Under the pieces are notes generated by a model that worked only from the letters and a program-made list of their open reading frames with translations, was not told the DNA's origin and made no database searches. Source: Actinacidiphila paucisporea (lineage in GTDB: Bacteria > Actinomycetota > Actinomycetes > Streptomycetales > Streptomycetaceae). From it: a DNA stretch of 64,000 nt. The stretch is from positions 62,001 through 126,000 of the forward strand of contig NZ_FRBI01000005.1 of NCBI RefSeq assembly GCF_900142575.1. Direction: 5' to 3'. Shown one piece after another: positions 48,670 through 56,570 of the stretch. Each line of letters begins with the position of its first letter. The first letter of the stretch is position 1. Position numbers and translations under genes: made by a program.

Positions 48670-49635
48670 TCAGATCGTGAGCAGGATCTTGCCGATGTGC
48701 TCGCTGCTCTCCATCAGGCGGTGGGCTTCCGGGGCCGACGCCAGCGGCAGCGTACGGTCCACGACCGGGCGGACGGTGCCGGCCTCGATCAGCGGCCAGA
48801 CGTGTTCGCGGACAGCGGCGATGATCGCCGCCTTCTCCTCCGTCGGCCGGGCCCGCAGGGTGGTCGCGATGACGGCGCCGCGCTTGGCGAGCAGCCGGCC
48901 GAGGTTGAGTTCGGCCTTCGCTCCGCCCTGCATGCCGATGATGACGAGCCGGCCGTTGACGGCCAGGGCGTCGACGTTGCGGGCCAGGTAGGCGGCGCCG
49001 ACCACGTCGAGGATGACGTCCGCGCCGTGGTCGCCCAGCTCCGCGACGAAGTCCTGCTCCCGGTAGTTGACCAGGACGTCGGCACCCAGGTCACGGCAGG
49101 CCGCCAGCTTCTGCGCGCTGCCCGCGGTCGTCACCACCCTCGCGCCGACCGCCTTGCCGAGCTGGATGGCCATGGTCCCGATGCCGCTGGACCCGCCGTG
49201 CACCAGAAGCGTCTCGGCCGGCCGCAGGTGGGCGATCTGGAAGACGTTGGACCACACGGTGGCGGTCACCTCGGGCAGTGCCGCGGCCGTCACGAGGTCG
49301 ACGCCCTTGGGCACGGGAAGGAGTTGGCCGACGGGGACGGCGACCTTCTCCGCGTAACCGCCGCCGACGAGCAGCGCGCAGACCTCGTCGCCCACCGCCC
49401 AACCGGTCACGCCGGGGCCGAGGGCCGCGATCCGTCCGGAGCATTCGAGCCCGGGATAGCGGGAGGCGTCGGGCGGCGGCTCGTAGAAGCCCTGCCGCTG
49501 GAGAACGTCGGCGCGGTTCACGGCCGAGGCGACGACCTCGACCAGCACTTCACCCGCGCCCGGCACGGGATCGGGGACGTCGGCCAGGACCAGCGCATCC
49601 GGGCCGCCCGGTTCGGCAATGGTGATCGCACGCAT
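48670..49635 (-). CDS. NADPH:quinone oxidoreductase (zeta-crystallin type)
   Basis: 321 residues. The medium-chain reductase fold without zinc ligands: the GroES-like domain (about 1-125, VASAVNRADVLQRQGFYEPPPDASRYPGLECSGRI) and a Rossmann domain (about 126-290) with the NADPH motif HGGSSGIGTMAIQLGKAVGARV. It reduces quinones or related enones by NADPH, probably for redox protection. It is separated from tnaA by 243 bp with direct repeats. Confidence 0.93.
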   Translation of the reverse strand: MRAITIAEPGGPDALVLADVPDPVPGAGEVLVEVVASAVNRADVLQRQGFYEPPPDASRYPGLECSGRIAALGPGVTGWAVGDEVCALLVGGGYAEKVAVPVGQLLPVPKGVDLVTAAALPEVTATVWSNVFQIAHLRPAETLLVHGGSSGIGTMAIQLGKAVGARVVTTAGSAQKLAACRDLGADVLVNYREQDFVAELGDHGADVILDVVGAAYLARNVDALAVNGRLVIIGMQGGAKAELNLGRLLAKRGAVIATTLRARPTEEKAAIIAAVREHVWPLIEAGTVRPVVDRTLPLASAPEAHRLMESSEHIGKILLTI

Positions 49636-49878: not shown

Positions 49879-51252
49879 TCACCCCTCGACGGGCACCGGT
49901 TCCAGCGTGGCGCGGAAGTGGCGCAGGATCGGCGACTGGTCCACGATGCGGAAGCCGTAGACGCTGTCCGCCCGCTTGGCGATCTTCGCCAGGGTGTCGC
50001 CGACGTGGTCGTAGTGGCTGCGGGTGTAGACCCGGCGCGGCAGCGCGAGCCTGACCAGCTCGTAGGGCGCGCTCTTGATCGGGTTCCCCTGCTCGTCCTC
50101 CTCGCCGAGGTAGAGGGAGCCCAGTTCGGCCGAGCGGATGCCTCCCTCCAGGTAGAGCTGGCAGGCGAGGGCGTGGCCGGGGAAGTGGTGGGGCGGTATG
50201 TGCGGCAGCAGGCGGCCGGCGTTGAGGTAGAGGGCGTGCATGCCGGGCGGTTCGATGATGTCGACCCCGGCCGAGCGCACCCGGTGGGCGAGGTGGGCGG
50301 CGACGTCGGCCCGCTCGGCGAGGTAGGCCGGCTCGGTGACCTCCTTCAGGCCCTGGGCCATCATGTCGAGGTCGCGCCCGGCCAGGCCGCCGTAGGTGGC
50401 GAAGCCCTCGGTGGCGATGAGCAGCAGCTCGCAGCGCTGGGCGAGTTCGCCGTCGTTGAGCCCGATGAATCCGCCGATGTGGACGATGCCGTCCTTCTTG
50501 GCGCTCATCATGCAGCCGTCCGCCAGCCGGAAGGCCTCCTCGGCGACCTGGCGGGGGGTGCGGTCGCGGTAGGCGGCCTCGTGCCGGGTGACCAGCCAGG
50601 CGTTCTCGGCGAAGCGGGCGGCGTCCAGGAAGAAGGGGACGCCGTGCTCGCGGCAGAGGGCGGAGGTCCGCTTGAGGTTGTCCATGGAGACGGGCTGGCC
50701 GCCGCCGCCGTTGTTGGTGATGGTCATGACCACCATGGCGACCCGCGAGCCGTCGGGGCCGGTCAGCGTCCGGCTGAGCTCCTCCAGGTCTATGTTGCCC
50801 TTGAAGGGCTCGGTGCTGTCCAGGTTCCTGGCCTCGGCGCAGGGGAGGTCGCGTGCCTCGGCACCGGACAGTTCGACGTTCGCCCGGGTGGTGTCGAAGT
50901 GCGTGTTGGCCAGCACGAGGCGGCCGGGTTCCAGCAGGGTGTTGAAGAGGATGCGTTCGGCGGCGCGCCCCTGGTGGGCCGGCAGGATATGCGCGTATCC
51001 GGTCAGCTCGGTCACGGTCTCGTGGAAGCGGTAGAAGGAGCGGGAGCCGGAGTAGGACTCGTCGCCCGCCATGCCTGCGGCGAGTTGCGCGGCCGACAGC
51101 GCGCCGGTTCCGGAGTCCGTCAGCAGGTCGATGGTCACCTCCTCGGCCCGCAGGTCGAAGAGGTTGTAGTGCACGCGTTTCAGCGCCTCCTCGCGCTGTT
51201 GCCGCGTCGGTTGCGGGATGGGCTCCACGACCTTGATCCTGTACGGCTCCAT
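49879..51252 (-). CDS. tnaA: Tryptophanase (tryptophan indole-lyase), linked to an indole prenyltransferase
   Basis: 457 residues from ATG 51252, with AGGAG 10 nt upstream. It is a PLP enzyme of the aspartate aminotransferase fold that splits tryptophan into indole, pyruvate and ammonia. The whole chain aligns with Escherichia coli TnaA by eye: IDLLTDSGTGAL, YSGSRSFYRFHE, PAHQGRAAE, FKGNIDLEEL, MSAKKDG with the PLP Lys253, FATYGGLAGRDLD and LRHFRATL. Tyrosine phenol-lyase is the close alternative. It lies 49 bp after the DMATS gene on the same strand, so its likely substrate is tryptophan or prenyl-tryptophan. Confidence 0.9.
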   Translation of the reverse strand: MEPYRIKVVEPIPQPTRQQREEALKRVHYNLFDLRAEEVTIDLLTDSGTGALSAAQLAAGMAGDESYSGSRSFYRFHETVTELTGYAHILPAHQGRAAERILFNTLLEPGRLVLANTHFDTTRANVELSGAEARDLPCAEARNLDSTEPFKGNIDLEELSRTLTGPDGSRVAMVVMTITNNGGGGQPVSMDNLKRTSALCREHGVPFFLDAARFAENAWLVTRHEAAYRDRTPRQVAEEAFRLADGCMMSAKKDGIVHIGGFIGLNDGELAQRCELLLIATEGFATYGGLAGRDLDMMAQGLKEVTEPAYLAERADVAAHLAHRVRSAGVDIIEPPGMHALYLNAGRLLPHIPPHHFPGHALACQLYLEGGIRSAELGSLYLGEEDEQGNPIKSAPYELVRLALPRRVYTRSHYDHVGDTLAKIAKRADSVYGFRIVDQSPILRHFRATLEPVPVEG

Positions 51253-51301
51253 GCTGACGGTGCTCCTGTCGTTGCTTCGTGCTGTCTCTCGGGGAGAGGT
51301 G

Positions 51302-52465
51302 CTACCGGCCGGACTCGCGGCCGAGCTGGGGCGGGACCGCGTCGCGCGGTCGCTGTACCTCGTACGCCTCGGAGGAGACGTAGACGGTCACCCGGGGCGG
51401 ATGGCCCCGCTGGTGGACCAGCGACACGTAGGCGATCAGGCCCGGGCCGTCGCTCAGCCGGCGCGGGGTCACGGCGGCCAGCGCCCGGTCGAGTGCCGCG
51501 CTGTCCATGCCGTGCTCGCGCAGCACCGCGGCGGCACGGTCGCGTGCCTCGCCGTCGTGCCGGGCGTGTTCGCGGACGGGCACGTGCACCGTGTAGCCGC
51601 TGGGCAGGCCGGTCGCGGTCTCCGTGAAGGAGTGGCAGGTCAGGGTGCGGCGCCTGACGGGGAGTTCGGCGTCGTCCTCGGCGGTGTAGCCGCCGGCGGT
51701 CCGCACGAACCTCGCCATCTGCTCCCGCCCACCGGCGGGCGTCATGGCGGGCATGGCGCCGGCCTCCTCGGCGGACAGGCCGCGGTGGCTGAGGTAGACC
51801 TTCACGCGGGGTGCCTTCCAGTCCCCCAGGTCCAGGCCGACGAAGAGCATGCCGTCGGCCTTCGGCAGGGCGTCGAAGGCTTTGCGGTGGCCGAGCCTGG
51901 CCAGCGTCTCCTGGACGGTCTCGGCCGACCGGTCCTGCCCGGCGACCGCCGGGTTGAGGTAGACCTTGACCCGGGGAATGCCACCGGGACGCAGTTCCAG
52001 CGCGCACCACAGGGCCAGCGGGCCTTCAGGGGAGGCAGGGAAGTACAGGTCCTCGAGCCGGTCGAGGTGGCTGGTGTCGAATTTCCAGCGGTCCGCCATC
52101 TCCCGTATCGCGCGCAGCCCGGTGCGGCCGTTCTCCGCCATGTCGTCGCTGCCGCATCCCGGCTCCACCAGCACCCTGAGGGTGGGAGCCGCGCCCGGCA
52201 GGAAGGCCAGCGAGAATTCCACCGGTGTGTGGTCGTCGGACAGGAAGCTCCGGGATGGCGGCGGCAGCGCCAACGACCTCCGTGCTACCGGGCCCAGGCT
52301 GTCGGTCAGCACACCCGCGTAGGTCTCCGCGTCCGTCCGGTCCAGTTCGGCCACCGCGCACAGCCTGGTCAGCTGCCCGGTCACCAGGTCGCCGAGCCGT
52401 CCACCGTCGCGTTGCGGCCCCCCGTGGCCGGCAAGCTGCTCCGATTCCGGAGCGCGGCTTCTCAC
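51302..52465 (-). CDS. Aromatic (tryptophan) prenyltransferase of the DMATS/ABBA fold
   Basis: 387 residues from GTG 52465. Bacterial DMATS-type enzymes such as IptA and SCO7467 transfer dimethylallyl from DMAPP to the indole ring of tryptophan. Hallmarks: the substrate glutamate in TPVEFSLAF (Glu83, like FgaPT2 Glu89) and basic-x-aromatic diphosphate-binding strands RVKVYLNP (Lys167/Tyr169), RVKVYLSH (Lys222/Tyr224) and RVTVYVSS (Tyr362), repeated once per barrel unit. No DDxxD motif is present, as expected. Length is normal. It sits between a conservon and tryptophanase, 316 bp from the P450 gene, so it may have its own promoter. The ring position prenylated cannot be told. Confidence 0.9.
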   Translation of the reverse strand: MRSRAPESEQLAGHGGPQRDGGRLGDLVTGQLTRLCAVAELDRTDAETYAGVLTDSLGPVARRSLALPPPSRSFLSDDHTPVEFSLAFLPGAAPTLRVLVEPGCGSDDMAENGRTGLRAIREMADRWKFDTSHLDRLEDLYFPASPEGPLALWCALELRPGGIPRVKVYLNPAVAGQDRSAETVQETLARLGHRKAFDALPKADGMLFVGLDLGDWKAPRVKVYLSHRGLSAEEAGAMPAMTPAGGREQMARFVRTAGGYTAEDDAELPVRRRTLTCHSFTETATGLPSGYTVHVPVREHARHDGEARDRAAAVLREHGMDSAALDRALAAVTPRRLSDGPGLIAYVSLVHQRGHPPRVTVYVSSEAYEVQRPRDAVPPQLGRESGR

Positions 52466-52582
52466 TGCGCAGCCCCGGAGACGGCACGGAAGGCGGTATT
52501 TCGCCTTATACGGACGTTAAGAGACCCGCCCCGGGGGGCGGGTACGGGAACTCGCGGCATGCGGGATGTCTTACGTATCAGT

Positions 52583-52596
52583 AAATTGTCCAATTT
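52583..52596. promoter_or_regulatory. Candidate operator/promoter of the prenyltransferase-tryptophanase pair
   Basis: AAATTG (52583-52588) and CAATTT (52591-52596) form a perfect 14-bp inverted repeat about 120 bp upstream of the prenyltransferase start, inside an unusually AT-rich patch of the 316-bp gap (52466-52781). A TTGGAC hexamer overlaps it on the minus strand. I see no gene in the gap. Confidence 0.45.
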
Positions 52597-52781
52597 GAGG
52601 GGGAGATCGCATAGCCGCGACACCGAAGAAATCGCGGAACGTGGATGGGCGGGTGCGCCGACGGGGACAGGCACCACGACTACTCCTTTTTGTTTTTGAC
52701 CAACGCGAATTGCGCCTCGTTGACTACCCGTCCCGTGTATCGGTCATGCAATGCGCTGGCATATTCCGCATGTGTCGTGGA

Positions 52782-54122
52782 TCACACCTTCCACCAAGCC
52801 AGGAAGGAACTCCACAACCCGCCCTTTTCGGACTTCCCCTGCGGCCGGGCCTGGGTTCCGCTTGCCGCAGTCTGTGCCTGTCCCTGCGGCGCCGAACTCC
52901 TCTCGGCGCGGAGCGGGCTGAACCGGGCGGGCAGCGTGGCCAAGGCGCGGTTGAAGGGTCCCGGGCGCCAGGCCAGGCTGTCCTCGGGCACCGCGAGCTC
53001 GATGTCGGGCAGCCGGTTGAGCAGGTTCTCGATGGCCGCCACCGTGATGAGCTGGGCCGGATCCTTTGCCGGGCATCCGTGCGGTCCGGTGCTCCATGCC
53101 AGGTGAGCGCGCTTGCTGAGCAGCTGGCGCGATCCGGAGAAGGCCGGGTCGGAGTTGGCCGCGGCGAAGCTGACCAGCACCAGGTCGCCCGCGTTCAGCC
53201 GGGTCCCCGCGAAGTCGACGTCGGTCACCGGGTAGTGCGGCGCGTAGTTCGACATGGGCGGGTTGTTCCACAACACCTCGTCGATGGCGTCCTCGACCAG
53301 CAGGCCGCCCCCGGAATACCTGTCATCGGACAGAATGAGGTAAAGCCCGTTCCCGATGAGGTTCCGCAACGGCTCGGCACCGGCCCCGAGGAGCAGGACG
53401 AGTTGATGGGCCATTTCTTCGTCGGTAAGATTCGCCGGGTGCTGCATGAGCCAGGAAGTGACATCGTCACCCGGCTTTGCCCGGCGGAGCGCGACAAGTT
53501 CCCCGACGCTCTGCGCGAGCACCTCGTTCGCTTTTTCCGCGTTGATTCCGTCGAAAATACCGTTGATACCGAAGATGACCCGGTCACCGATGTCGGCCGG
53601 GCAGCCGAAGAGCTCGCTGAAGACGAAGAGCGGCAGCAGCTTGGCGTAGTCGTTGAGCAGATCGACGGAACCGCGGGAGTTGAACTGCTCGATAAGGTAG
53701 GTCGATATACGCTCGACGTTCCTCTTCAGCTGGTGCGCGTCCACCCGGGCCATCGTGTCCGTCACCGCCTGCCGCAGCCGCAGGTGGTCGGAGCCGTCAC
53801 TGAACATGCAGTTCGGCCGGTAGGCGAGCAGCGGCACCACCGGGCTGTTCGGACTGACCAGACCCTGGTTGAAGTCGCGCCAGTGGCGCGAGTCCTTCCT
53901 GAACGTGTCCGGATTCTGCAGCAGTTGCAGCGCCGCCAGGTAATCCGTGACGAGAGTGGCGTTCACTCCGGGCGCCAACTCGACCGGTGCGGTCGCCCCG
54001 TAGTTGCGCATCCACGCGTAGTAAGCGTTCGGGTCCGCCGCGAAATCGGGCCCGTAGAGGGGCACCCGGCCGTGGGCGGGGCAGCCCGGCGGAGGCGAGG
54101 GGACCTCTGAATCGATGCTCAC
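52782..54122 (-). CDS. cvnE: Conservon cytochrome P450 (CvnE; CYP157-like) lacking EXXR
   Basis: 446 residues from GTG 54122, one base after the cvnD stop, with AGGAGAG 6 nt upstream. The fold is P450: C-helix SDHLRLRQ, heme thiolate Cys350 in WSTGPHGCPAKDP. Three otherwise conserved elements are altered: the K-helix EXXR is EVLW (282-285), the I-helix AGxxT is AGAEP (247-251), and the heme-loop Phe is Trp343. Loss of EXXR is known for the CYP157 family, which is associated with conservons. The C-terminus has an extra linker and a Trp-rich amphipathic tail (WSSFLAWWKV) that could bind membranes. Catalytic competence is uncertain; a sensing role is possible. Confidence 0.9.
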   Translation of the reverse strand: MSIDSEVPSPPPGCPAHGRVPLYGPDFAADPNAYYAWMRNYGATAPVELAPGVNATLVTDYLAALQLLQNPDTFRKDSRHWRDFNQGLVSPNSPVVPLLAYRPNCMFSDGSDHLRLRQAVTDTMARVDAHQLKRNVERISTYLIEQFNSRGSVDLLNDYAKLLPLFVFSELFGCPADIGDRVIFGINGIFDGINAEKANEVLAQSVGELVALRRAKPGDDVTSWLMQHPANLTDEEMAHQLVLLLGAGAEPLRNLIGNGLYLILSDDRYSGGGLLVEDAIDEVLWNNPPMSNYAPHYPVTDVDFAGTRLNAGDLVLVSFAAANSDPAFSGSRQLLSKRAHLAWSTGPHGCPAKDPAQLITVAAIENLLNRLPDIELAVPEDSLAWRPGPFNRALATLPARFSPLRAERSSAPQGQAQTAASGTQARPQGKSEKGGLWSSFLAWWKV

Positions 54123-54123
54123 G

Positions 54124-54723
54124 TCATGCTCTCCTATCGGTACGCGTCTGCAGATACCGGACCAGGGCGATCAACGCGTCGGCGGATGACTTCTGGTCAC
54201 GGGCGTCACAGGTGACGATGGGGGTTTCGGGTAGCAGGTCGAGGGCTTCCCGCAACTCGTTCTCCGGACGGACCGGCGTCTCGTCGAAGTGGTTGACGGA
54301 GATCGCGTAGGGCAGCCCGTACTGCTCCACCAGATCGATCACCGGGAAGGACTCCTTGAGCCGCTCGGGGTCGACCAGGATCAGCGCCCCGAGAGCGCCC
54401 CTGGTCATGTCCTCCCACACCTGGACGAAGCGCTCCTGCCCGGGCGTCCCGAACAGGTAGAGGACGAGCTTGCTGCTGAGAGTGATACGGCCGAAGTCCA
54501 TCGCCACGGTGGTCGTGGACTTCCCCCGCACCCCGCCGAGGTCGTCGACGTGTGCGCCGGCCTGTGTCATCCGCTCCTCGGTACGCAGCGGAGGGATCTC
54601 GGACATGGTGCCGATGAACGTCGTCTTCCCGACGGCGAAGTGCCCCACGACCAGAATCTTGGCCGCGATCTGCACCGCGTCGTCCAGATAGACGCCATCA
54701 GCCGAATCGGGCCTGGAGCCCAT
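54124..54723 (-). CDS. cvnD: Conservon small GTPase-like protein (CvnD)
   Basis: 199 residues. Ras-like elements: P-loop GHFAVGKTT (27-35), G3 TPGQER (93-98; Gly in place of Asp of DxxG) and an N-H-F-D G4 (144-147) instead of NKxD, features of the MglA/Cvn branch. Its start lies inside the end of cvnC (26-nt overlap). CvnD is thought to bind GTP and associate with CvnA-C in a membrane complex that resembles eukaryotic G-protein signalling. Confidence 0.92.
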   Translation of the reverse strand: MGSRPDSADGVYLDDAVQIAAKILVVGHFAVGKTTFIGTMSEIPPLRTEERMTQAGAHVDDLGGVRGKSTTTVAMDFGRITLSSKLVLYLFGTPGQERFVQVWEDMTRGALGALILVDPERLKESFPVIDLVEQYGLPYAISVNHFDETPVRPENELREALDLLPETPIVTCDARDQKSSADALIALVRYLQTRTDRRA

Positions 54724-55069
54724 TCAGCACCTCCTGGAGGAGTGATACGTCGACAAGTTGCGCGGGTGGCACGGGGGCGCGTACGACGAGGAAGCCGTCC
54801 GCCGACAGGTCGGACAGCAGGACCTTGACGATGCCGATCGGGAGCTTCATGTGCCCCGCGATCTCGGCGACCGACAGAAGCCCTCCGGAACACAGGTCGA
54901 GGACGCTGTGCTTTTCGGGGTCGAGGTGGCTCGGGCGTGGCTGGTCGGACGTGGTGACCAGGGTGATCAGATTGAACTGGTCGTCGTCCGGGAGCCCGCG
55001 CCCGTTCGTGATGACGTACGGTCGCACTAATTCCACGGACAGCGCTTCGGGATCCCCAGGTGTGCTCAT
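54698..55069 (-). CDS. cvnC: Conservon DUF742 protein (CvnC)
   Basis: 123 residues. DUF742 pattern: VRPYVITNGRG, LDPEKHSVLDLCSGGLLSVAEIAGHMKLPIGIVKVLLSDLSADGFL, a winged-helix-like region. The start overlaps cvnB by 4 nt and the stop overlaps cvnD by 26 nt. It is a scaffold or nucleic-acid-binding-like partner in the CvnA-D complex; function not settled. Confidence 0.92.
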   Translation of the reverse strand: MSTPGDPEALSVELVRPYVITNGRGLPDDDQFNLITLVTTSDQPRPSHLDPEKHSVLDLCSGGLLSVAEIAGHMKLPIGIVKVLLSDLSADGFLVVRAPVPPAQLVDVSLLQEVLNGLQARFG

Positions 55070-55467
55070 GCCTGGGTACTCGTGTTCTCACGCAGCGGAC
55101 TGGTCAGCGCCTTGCCGAGCTGTCCGACAAGCTGCTGCATCCGGAAGGTGATCGCTCCCATGTCGACGTCGGGCGCGGACGAGACGGCCAGATACGCGCC
55201 CGCTCCCGCGGCGATGAGGAAGACCCATCCGCCGTCGAACTCGACCAGGGTCTGCCGCCACTGCATATGGGAGCCGCCGCAGAAGCCGGCCATGGTGCGG
55301 CTCAACGACTGGATGCCGCTCATGGCCGCAGCGACGGTGTCGGCATCGTCCTTCATGATCTCCTGCGAGCGGGCCATGAGAAGGCCGTCGGCGGAGATCA
55401 GGATCGCATGACGGGCCCCTGGGACTTCTAGGGCGCTGTCAAGCATCCATGACAGGTCGTTGTTCAC
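55066..55467 (-). CDS. cvnB: Conservon roadblock/LC7 protein (CvnB)
   Basis: 133 residues. The roadblock/LC7 domain (about 5-110): LSWMLDSALEVPGARHAILISADGLLMARS, then MSGIQSLSRTMAGF and LVEFDGGWVFLIAAGAGAYLAV. Roadblock proteins act as GTPase-activating or scaffolding partners for MglA-like GTPases such as CvnD. It overlaps cvnA by 4 nt (55464-55467) and cvnC by 4 nt. Confidence 0.93.
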   Translation of the reverse strand: MNNDLSWMLDSALEVPGARHAILISADGLLMARSQEIMKDDADTVAAAMSGIQSLSRTMAGFCGGSHMQWRQTLVEFDGGWVFLIAAGAGAYLAVSSAPDVDMGAITFRMQQLVGQLGKALTSPLRENTSTQA

Positions 55468-56570
55468 TGCGGATCGTGCCCTTCCGTGTTTGCGGAGCGC
55501 CCGGACTGTGTGCCGAGCTGGAAGGCGGCCATAATCGATGCAGTTTCCGCTTCCGTCCGGGCCGGAGCACGGGTGGAATCCGCTTGCGGCACGATGGATA
55601 TCGAGCCTTTTCGACTACGTTTCGGGAGGCCACCGGGGGTGGAAGTGCTCACTTCTGGCGCTGCTGCCCCCGATGTGCGGGAAGGCATCGGCGCTTCTTC
55701 CGGCTCTGGCATGCTGGTCAGAAGCTCCTCGGGAATCAGCACCACCGCGCGTACACCACCGTACGGAGACGAAGAATCGACGGAAACGCTGAATCCGTAT
55801 CGGGCGGCGAGCACGCCGATGACCGCGAAACCGAACTGCGGCGGGTTTCCGAGTGCGGTGATGTCGGTGGGGCCCTGCGGCGACAGCAGGTGATCGGCCC
55901 GCTTCTTCTCCTCCTCGTTCATACCGACACCGGCATCATCGATAATGATGCAGACACCCTTGGGCACTGTGCGGGTGGTGATGTCGATAGGGGAGTCGGG
56001 AGCGGAATAGCTGGTCGCATTGTCAAGCAGCTCGGCAAGCGCCAGTGCGACCGGTTCGACAGCCCGGCCGGTCATGGCGAAATTGCTCTGGGAACGGATT
56101 TCGACCCGGGTGTAGTGCCGGATTCTGCCCTTCGCGCTGCGCACCACGTCGTAGACCGAGGCGTCGGCCCGCTGCCTGCCCAGCCACCCGTCGCAGAGCA
56201 CGGCGATGGCCTGGGCACGCCTGCCGAACTGCGAGTTCATGTGGTCGATCTCCAGGAGGTCCTGGAGCACGTAGTGCTCACCGTACTTCCCCTGCGCCTT
56301 GGAGATGGCCAGCTGCTGTTCATTCGCGAGACCCTGGAGCGTTCGCATCGCGGATTTCAGCGCACTCTTGGTGGCGTCCTCCGCACGGATCCGGGCCTCG
56401 TGCACGGAAGCGGCGTAACTGCCTTCGAGTTCCGCGTAACGGCTCTCGACGACCGCCTTCTCCCGGCGTGTCTTGGTTCGCGCTCTGCGCTCGCGCACTA
56501 TGACAGTGGCGGCGAGCGGCGTGCCAGCGATCAGAGCCCAGAGCGCTGGATCCTGTATGTAATGCGTCAT
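55464..56570 (-). CDS. cvnA: Conservon sensor-kinase-like ATPase (CvnA), short form
   Basis: 368 residues from ATG 56570, with GAGAG 5 nt upstream. A single N-terminal helix (about 8-26, PALWALIAGTPLAATVIV) is followed by a coiled region (30-90) and an HATPase_c domain (about 170-285: ALAELLDNATSYSAPDSPI, IIDDAGVGMNEEE, FGFAVIGVLAARYGFSVSVDSS). The C-terminal 75 residues are Pro/Ser-rich. It lacks the large extracellular nitrate/nitrite-sensing domain of long CvnA proteins, so ligand input is probably direct or by another partner. A histidine acceptor (about residue 110, EIDHMNSQFGRR) matches a DHp-like helix. Confidence 0.9.
   Translation of the reverse strand: MTHYIQDPALWALIAGTPLAATVIVRERRARTKTRREKAVVESRYAELEGSYAASVHEARIRAEDATKSALKSAMRTLQGLANEQQLAISKAQGKYGEHYVLQDLLEIDHMNSQFGRRAQAIAVLCDGWLGRQRADASVYDVVRSAKGRIRHYTRVEIRSQSNFAMTGRAVEPVALALAELLDNATSYSAPDSPIDITTRTVPKGVCIIIDDAGVGMNEEEKKRADHLLSPQGPTDITALGNPPQFGFAVIGVLAARYGFSVSVDSSSPYGGVRAVVLIPEELLTSMPEPEEAPMPSRTSGAAAPEVSTSTPGGLPKRSRKGSISIVPQADSTRAPARTEAETASIMAAFQLGTQSGRSANTEGHDPQ

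Follow-up and report, generated by a model that had tools for sequence, protein, structure and literature searches.

The conservon, prenyltransferase and tryptophanase genes of the window (the whole analysed stretch of 64,000 nucleotides) are best read as a Type A iptA cluster, in which the conservon would control a separately started DMATS-tnaA operon, with a leader open reading frame (ORF) and a hairpin as a possible gate; judged from sequence, a probability of about 0.6 was assigned to this reading. Seven genes, transcribed in the order cvnA-B-C-D-E, DMATS and tnaA, lie on the minus strand (Table 1), and the common orientation described in a first-pass annotation was confirmed. The order of a conservon, namely a kinase-like ATPase (CvnA), a roadblock protein (CvnB), a DUF742 protein (CvnC) and a GTPase (CvnD), was present, as were the characteristics of a Type A iptA cluster, i.e., an IptA-type prenyltransferase, an adjoining tryptophanase gene and a conservon upstream in the same orientation. 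Neighbouring genes from cvnA to cvnE overlap by 4, 4 and 26 nt or, at the last junction, lie 1 nt apart; the distance from DMATS to tnaA is 49 nt, and cvnE and DMATS are separated by 316 bp. The statement that no other gene lies between the seven takes no account of this gap, which contains a conserved promoter-like element, an ORF of 71 codons running into the start of DMATS, and a hairpin. A quinone oxidoreductase gene (48670-49635) was rejected as a member of the cluster, as it adjoins tnaA only in the window and its three nearest relatives (L038-L040) and is absent there in L041-L043.

Table 1. Features of the conservon-DMATS-tnaA locus, in order of transcription (positions within the window).
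Feature	Position	Strand	Description
cvnA	55464..56570	minus	histidine-kinase-like ATPase; Pfam HATPase_c 1e-7
cvnB	55066..55467	minus	Roadblock/LC7 protein; Pfam Roadblock 2.3e-22
cvnC	54698..55069	minus	Pfam DUF742 5.6e-34
cvnD	54124..54723	minus	small Ras-like GTPase; Pfam ATP_bind_1 3.8e-28
cvnE	52782..54122	minus	degenerate P450; Pfam P450 22.3 bits, slightly below the 22.8 cut-off
SigB-type promoter-like element GCATGA-N14-GGGTAG	52724..52749	minus	32 bp past the cvnE stop codon; consensus from PMC8346170
Ribosome-binding site AAAAAGGAG of the leader ORF	52683..52691	minus	
Leader ORF, 71 codons, GTG start	52462..52677	minus	TGA overlaps the DMATS GTG as GTGA
G+C-rich hairpin, core ACCCGCCC-N4-GGGCGGGT, then CTCTTAAC	52523..52545	minus	terminator-like or attenuator-like
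iptA-type L-tryptophan dimethylallyltransferase (DMATS)	51302..52465	minus	Pfam Trp_DMAT 9.3e-12
Tryptophanase (tnaA)	49879..51252	minus	Pfam Beta_elim_lyase 2.6e-67; SAKKDG motif fits the PLP lysine

The linkage of conservon and DMATS is already known and widespread among relatives of Streptomyces. According to the available text of an IptA-based search, every retrieved iptA-type cluster was accompanied by a conservon, some with a P450, and the conservon was “always located upstream” in both the tryptophanase form, named Type A there, and the flavin monooxygenase (FMO) form, named Type B (Ozaki, Nishiyama & Kuzuyama, 2013; PMC3617294). The same text ascribes 6-dimethylallylindole-3-carbaldehyde to the Type A cluster of a Streptomyces sp., and signalling via the conservon as well as plant-microbe signalling had been raised in it (PMC3617294). 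The linkage and the greater part of its interpretation had thus been anticipated by this report, and gene linkage alone adds little. A further paper on the link was not found in the open-access literature, subscription journals being outside the scope of the search, and the SigB-type promoter-like element, the leader ORF and the hairpin in the cvnE-DMATS gap are apparently unreported so far. Since the outputs of conservons are poorly understood, this gap is of interest: a conserved promoter-like element and leader in front of enzyme genes make it easier to test whether the conservon switches these enzymes on.

The search set comprised 395 genomes of the family, which represent a sample, with DMATS relatives in 93 of them; genes were called with a simple codon-bias script. 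A complete cvnABCDE of the same clade and strand was found directly upstream in 60 of the 66 loci with a DMATS at least 49% identical, although such counts are not independent as the loci are related. Thirteen of these complete loci, the window included, are of Type A and 47 of Type B, and the remaining six loci consist of two with four of the five cvn genes recognised, one with cvnE only, one at a contig end and two without a conservon. A second set of 80 named loci, retrieved with a DMATS alignment as query from genomes partly shared with the first, left the picture unchanged. Within the window’s genus, Actinacidiphila, all eight DMATS-bearing genomes possess a matching CvnE (best match above 80%), compared with none of the 27 others (at most ~59%). 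The adjacency of conservon and DMATS is far beyond chance; a coupling of the two in evolution is supported, and the linkage is clearly not confined to this one genome.

DMATS-tnaA pairs without a conservon occur as well (L098, L103, L104, L106 and L107). A regulator gene family of the SARP/BTAD type adjoins DMATS in L098 and L103 and, by gene family, in L106; a general rule of such a regulator replacing the conservon was rejected, the regulator being limited to these three loci and not seen in L104, L105 or L107. At the site where it sits in other conservon-less loci, L104 carries an nSTAND-WD40 gene. In L170, from another family of the class, a DMATS (40%) and a tryptophanase (63%) are oriented convergently to a conservon from another clade; its CvnA measures 799 aa, and the arrangement may be coincidence.

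An element of the form GCATGA-N14-GGGTAG, with modest degeneracy allowed, was present in 94 of 106 distinct cvnE-DMATS junctions compared to 1 of 2890 other gene ends of the same loci. It mostly lies 30-32 nt past the cvnE stop codon, and most of the exceptions seen carry near variants. In the genome of the window the long pattern, taken exactly, hardly recurs; the core pattern matches five times there, and the other four matches (L183-L186) fall into coding-like sequence and have no relative of conservon, DMATS, FMO or P450 nearby. Among 26 sister conservons, 19 have a related element ahead of their P450 gene (3 of 2138 in controls), and it was detected behind none of the 16 cvnE genes that are not followed by a co-directional DMATS or P450 gene. 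The same element was absent upstream of cvnA in 100 loci. The gap element agrees with the SigB-type consensus (GNNT-type -35, spacer of 12-14 nt, GGG(A/T)A as -10), and proven SigB promoters of S. coelicolor, e.g., SCO0566p with GCATAA-N14-GGGTAT, are of the same form (PMC8346170). It may hence be addressed as a putative SigB-type promoter, and its position, together with its joint presence or absence with the output gene, suggests that the conservon acts on it. It could also be a general 3’ feature of conservons close behind cvnE, although loss of the downstream gene goes along with loss of the element. Rfam gave no credible match near the gap. By tracking the output gene across related conservons, the element offers a concrete reporter target for conservon outputs.

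Downstream of this element, the stop of the leader ORF and the start of DMATS overlap by 4 nt at 58 of the 106 junctions; at 21 others the reading frame continues open into DMATS. The leader peptide is unconserved, with no selection on its sequence (pN/pS 0.96). Attenuation by a Trp-rich leader peptide was rejected, as the leader of the window has no Trp codon and the peptide evolves neutrally, and a conserved small protein or a RiPP precursor was rejected on the same grounds. The leader ORF of the window (52677-52462) contains a TTA codon, as do those of L039 and L040, though not that of L038; in streptomycetes this rare codon for leucine is linked to bldA.

The hairpin is situated inside the leader ORF. 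Perfect stems of at least 10 bp were found in 49 of 60 gaps, compared to 0.45 in shuffles, whereas the hairpin of the window is on the weak side, with a perfect core of 8 bp and a weak T tail; it was not listed in a standard scan for simple terminators, and the leader as a whole folds only slightly above shuffles (z -1.5). The inverted repeat could instead be an operator for a dimeric repressor, for which the nearly invariant core ACCCGCC/GGCGGGT would speak, symmetric changes being compatible with both an operator and an RNA hairpin. However, the whole L092 clade shows a stem of different sequence and equally perfect pairing (TGTCCCCCGGCC...GGCCGGGGGACA), and the 8 nt that follow the stem are enriched in T (0.45), as expected for terminators, so that an operator is considered rather doubtful. 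With the hairpin acting in the RNA, as the preferred reading has it, the leader ORF would run through it into DMATS, by which transcription and translation of DMATS might be gated, the hairpin possibly serving as an attenuator.

The DMATS of the window shares 72% identity with PriB and 66% with the 6-DMATS (6-dimethylallyltryptophan synthase) of PDB 7w8u; for the NCBIfam DMATS family it scored 150 bits, slightly below the cut-off of 163.85. Over 357 residues, 7w8u and the DMATS of L043 are identical; L043 belongs to the same genus and has the seven-gene layout of the window. PriB is 99.5% identical to the DMATS of S. hygroscopicus L189 (Type A, cvnABCDE-DMATS-tnaA). Because these two characterised 6-DMATS proteins correspond to loci of the window’s very layout, prenylation of tryptophan at C-6 is the likely reaction. 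The tryptophanase was assigned to the NCBIfam tryptophanase subfamily (617 bits), and its nearest solved structures are tryptophanases, closely followed by tyrosine phenol-lyases. By comparison with close characterised relatives, DMATS would transfer a dimethylallyl group onto L-tryptophan, most likely at C-6, and tryptophanase would release dimethylallylindole, pyruvate and ammonia from dimethylallyl-tryptophan; host enzymes could oxidise the dimethylallylindole onward to the 3-carbaldehyde.

CvnE aligns with P450s of known structure. In the window its heme-ligand cysteine is kept in GPHGCP, the K-helix reads EVLW, not the ExxR of catalytic P450s, and the I-helix AGAEPL is without the usual threonine; the family likewise has lost the K-helix arginine (mostly DDTLW elsewhere) and the I-helix threonine and kept the heme cysteine, and the P450 behind sister conservons displays normal motifs. 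CYP157 proteins without EXXR have been linked to conservons, and CvnE fits a CYP157-type conservon P450 by its pattern, i.e., location beside a conservon, lost ExxR and retained cysteine. It would accordingly be a protein of P450 fold, in which an ordinary monooxygenase role is unlikely. CvnA possesses one short N-terminal hydrophobic stretch, and an extracellular sensor domain was not found in it; CvnA7-13 are described as free of extracellular sensors, and the GAF protein CvnF was proposed as sensory input of Cvn8. Because CvnA has no sensor domain, CvnE would be, by analogy, the most likely ligand- or heme-sensing input subunit. CvnA-E would then form a membrane-associated GTPase switch with CvnE as its input, and the output would reach DMATS-tnaA via their own SigB-type promoter 32 bp behind cvnE.

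An opposite direction, with prenyl-tryptophan or prenyl-indole as the ligand of CvnE and other processes under the control of the conservon, appears unlikely. Signalling through the conservon was suggested in the available text of Ozaki et al. (PMC3617294), and CvnE keeps its heme cysteine but has lost monooxygenase motifs. As it is the second enzyme that varies between loci, with conservon and DMATS kept together, prenyl-tryptophan would be a better candidate than prenyl-indole. However, the same conservon family is found before a P450 and an enoyl-CoA hydratase without DMATS (26 loci) and is therefore not tied to one product. Prenyl-indole released by tryptophanase, which the first-pass annotation had put forward as the signal, is not supported: FMO replaces tryptophanase in 47 of the 60 complete loci, with conservon, element and DMATS remaining constant, DMATS-tnaA pairs without a conservon exist, and CvnA has no sensor domain. 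Mere linkage, with conservon and enzymes travelling together without functional contact, would agree with the finding of DMATS-tnaA without conservon and of the conservon with other partners, but it is rendered quite improbable by an order and orientation that are strictly kept in over 60 divergent loci, the fixed place of element and leader between conservon and DMATS, and the perfect co-occurrence in the window’s genus.

The related conservon has other partners, P450 with enoyl-CoA hydratase in 26 loci and FMO alone in four. That CvnE acts as a functional P450 on the prenylated indole, oxidising it, e.g., to the carbaldehyde, and that cvnE is thus a biosynthetic gene, is highly improbable, for even though the Type A 3-carbaldehyde requires an oxidising step in the available account (PMC3617294) and cvnE lies next to DMATS, the ExxR arginine and the I-helix threonine are missing in the family, as in CYP157, and CvnE is equally present beside unrelated enzymes. 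In L156, L157, L159 and L160 the conservon is combined with a Type B FMO and no DMATS, and the promoter-like element is gone; the hairpin persists behind cvnE in at least some of them. In one other genus (L127, L128, L130, L131, L132, L154 and in part L125) a distant DMATS (26-28% identity) is inserted beside cvnE of the same conservon clade. The insert comprises DMATS and two further genes, one weakly haem-oxygenase-like, on the strand opposite to cvnE and mostly between cvnD and cvnE, and the promoter-like element has been lost.

In the DMATS tree, conservon-linked DMATS formed one side of a branch with 100% SH-aLRT, Type A lying outside Type B. In the CvnABCD tree the group of the window joined the P450-type conservons (98/97 support) and not the other DMATS-linked ones, although a single DMATS-linked conservon clade was rejected only marginally (AU p 0.044). 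It is likely that the output gene was replaced at least once. As a tentative generalisation, which we hold to be possible but far from assured, a P450-bearing family of conservons might drive a neighbouring output gene via a SigB-type promoter that is dedicated to this gene and constant in its position past cvnE. The outputs (DMATS with tryptophanase, DMATS with FMO, P450 with enoyl-CoA hydratase) would be interchangeable, and the DMATS branch would have a second gate, a translated leader running through a terminator-like hairpin. If this were true, the dedicated promoter would, to our knowledge, be the first DNA site proposed from sequence as a target of a conservon.

Upstream of cvnA, a palindrome-like TGATACGATCA is conserved in L046, L050, L058, L128, L157 and others, and in these a conserved block ending in GAAGAGAGTCTTATG is located directly at the cvnA start; the GGGTAG element has no copy in this region. 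In the S. hygroscopicus/violaceusniger group (L190, L192, L197, L198, L207; L189, L191, L193, L196) a further P450-like gene lies divergent, just upstream of cvnA.

Compared with known systems, the window has the conservon, the IptA-kind DMATS and the tryptophanase in common with the Type A cluster of Streptomyces sp. SN-593 and relatives (Takahashi et al., cited in PMC3617294). As far as the available text describes that cluster, there is no essential difference, except that the promoter-like element and the leader between cvnE and DMATS are absent from the description (PMC3617294). Type B clusters (SCO7467-SCO7468, 5-dimethylallylindole-3-acetonitrile) possess the conservon-DMATS core, the promoter-like element of the gap and the hairpin as well, but differ in a convergent FMO gene instead of tryptophanase. 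Conservons 9-12 of S. coelicolor, which comprise P450 genes, resemble the window in a CvnA without extracellular sensor, CvnB-C-D and a P450-like CvnE (PMC8510531), whereas the sister clade in the present analysis has a normal P450 and an enoyl-CoA hydratase behind CvnE, not DMATS. With the SigB-type promoters of S. coelicolor the window element shares the GNNT-type -35, the 14-nt spacer and the -10 GGGTAG, as in SCO7446p (PMC8346170); the final G of the -10 does not agree with the B. subtilis consensus, but is present in proven S. coelicolor promoters.
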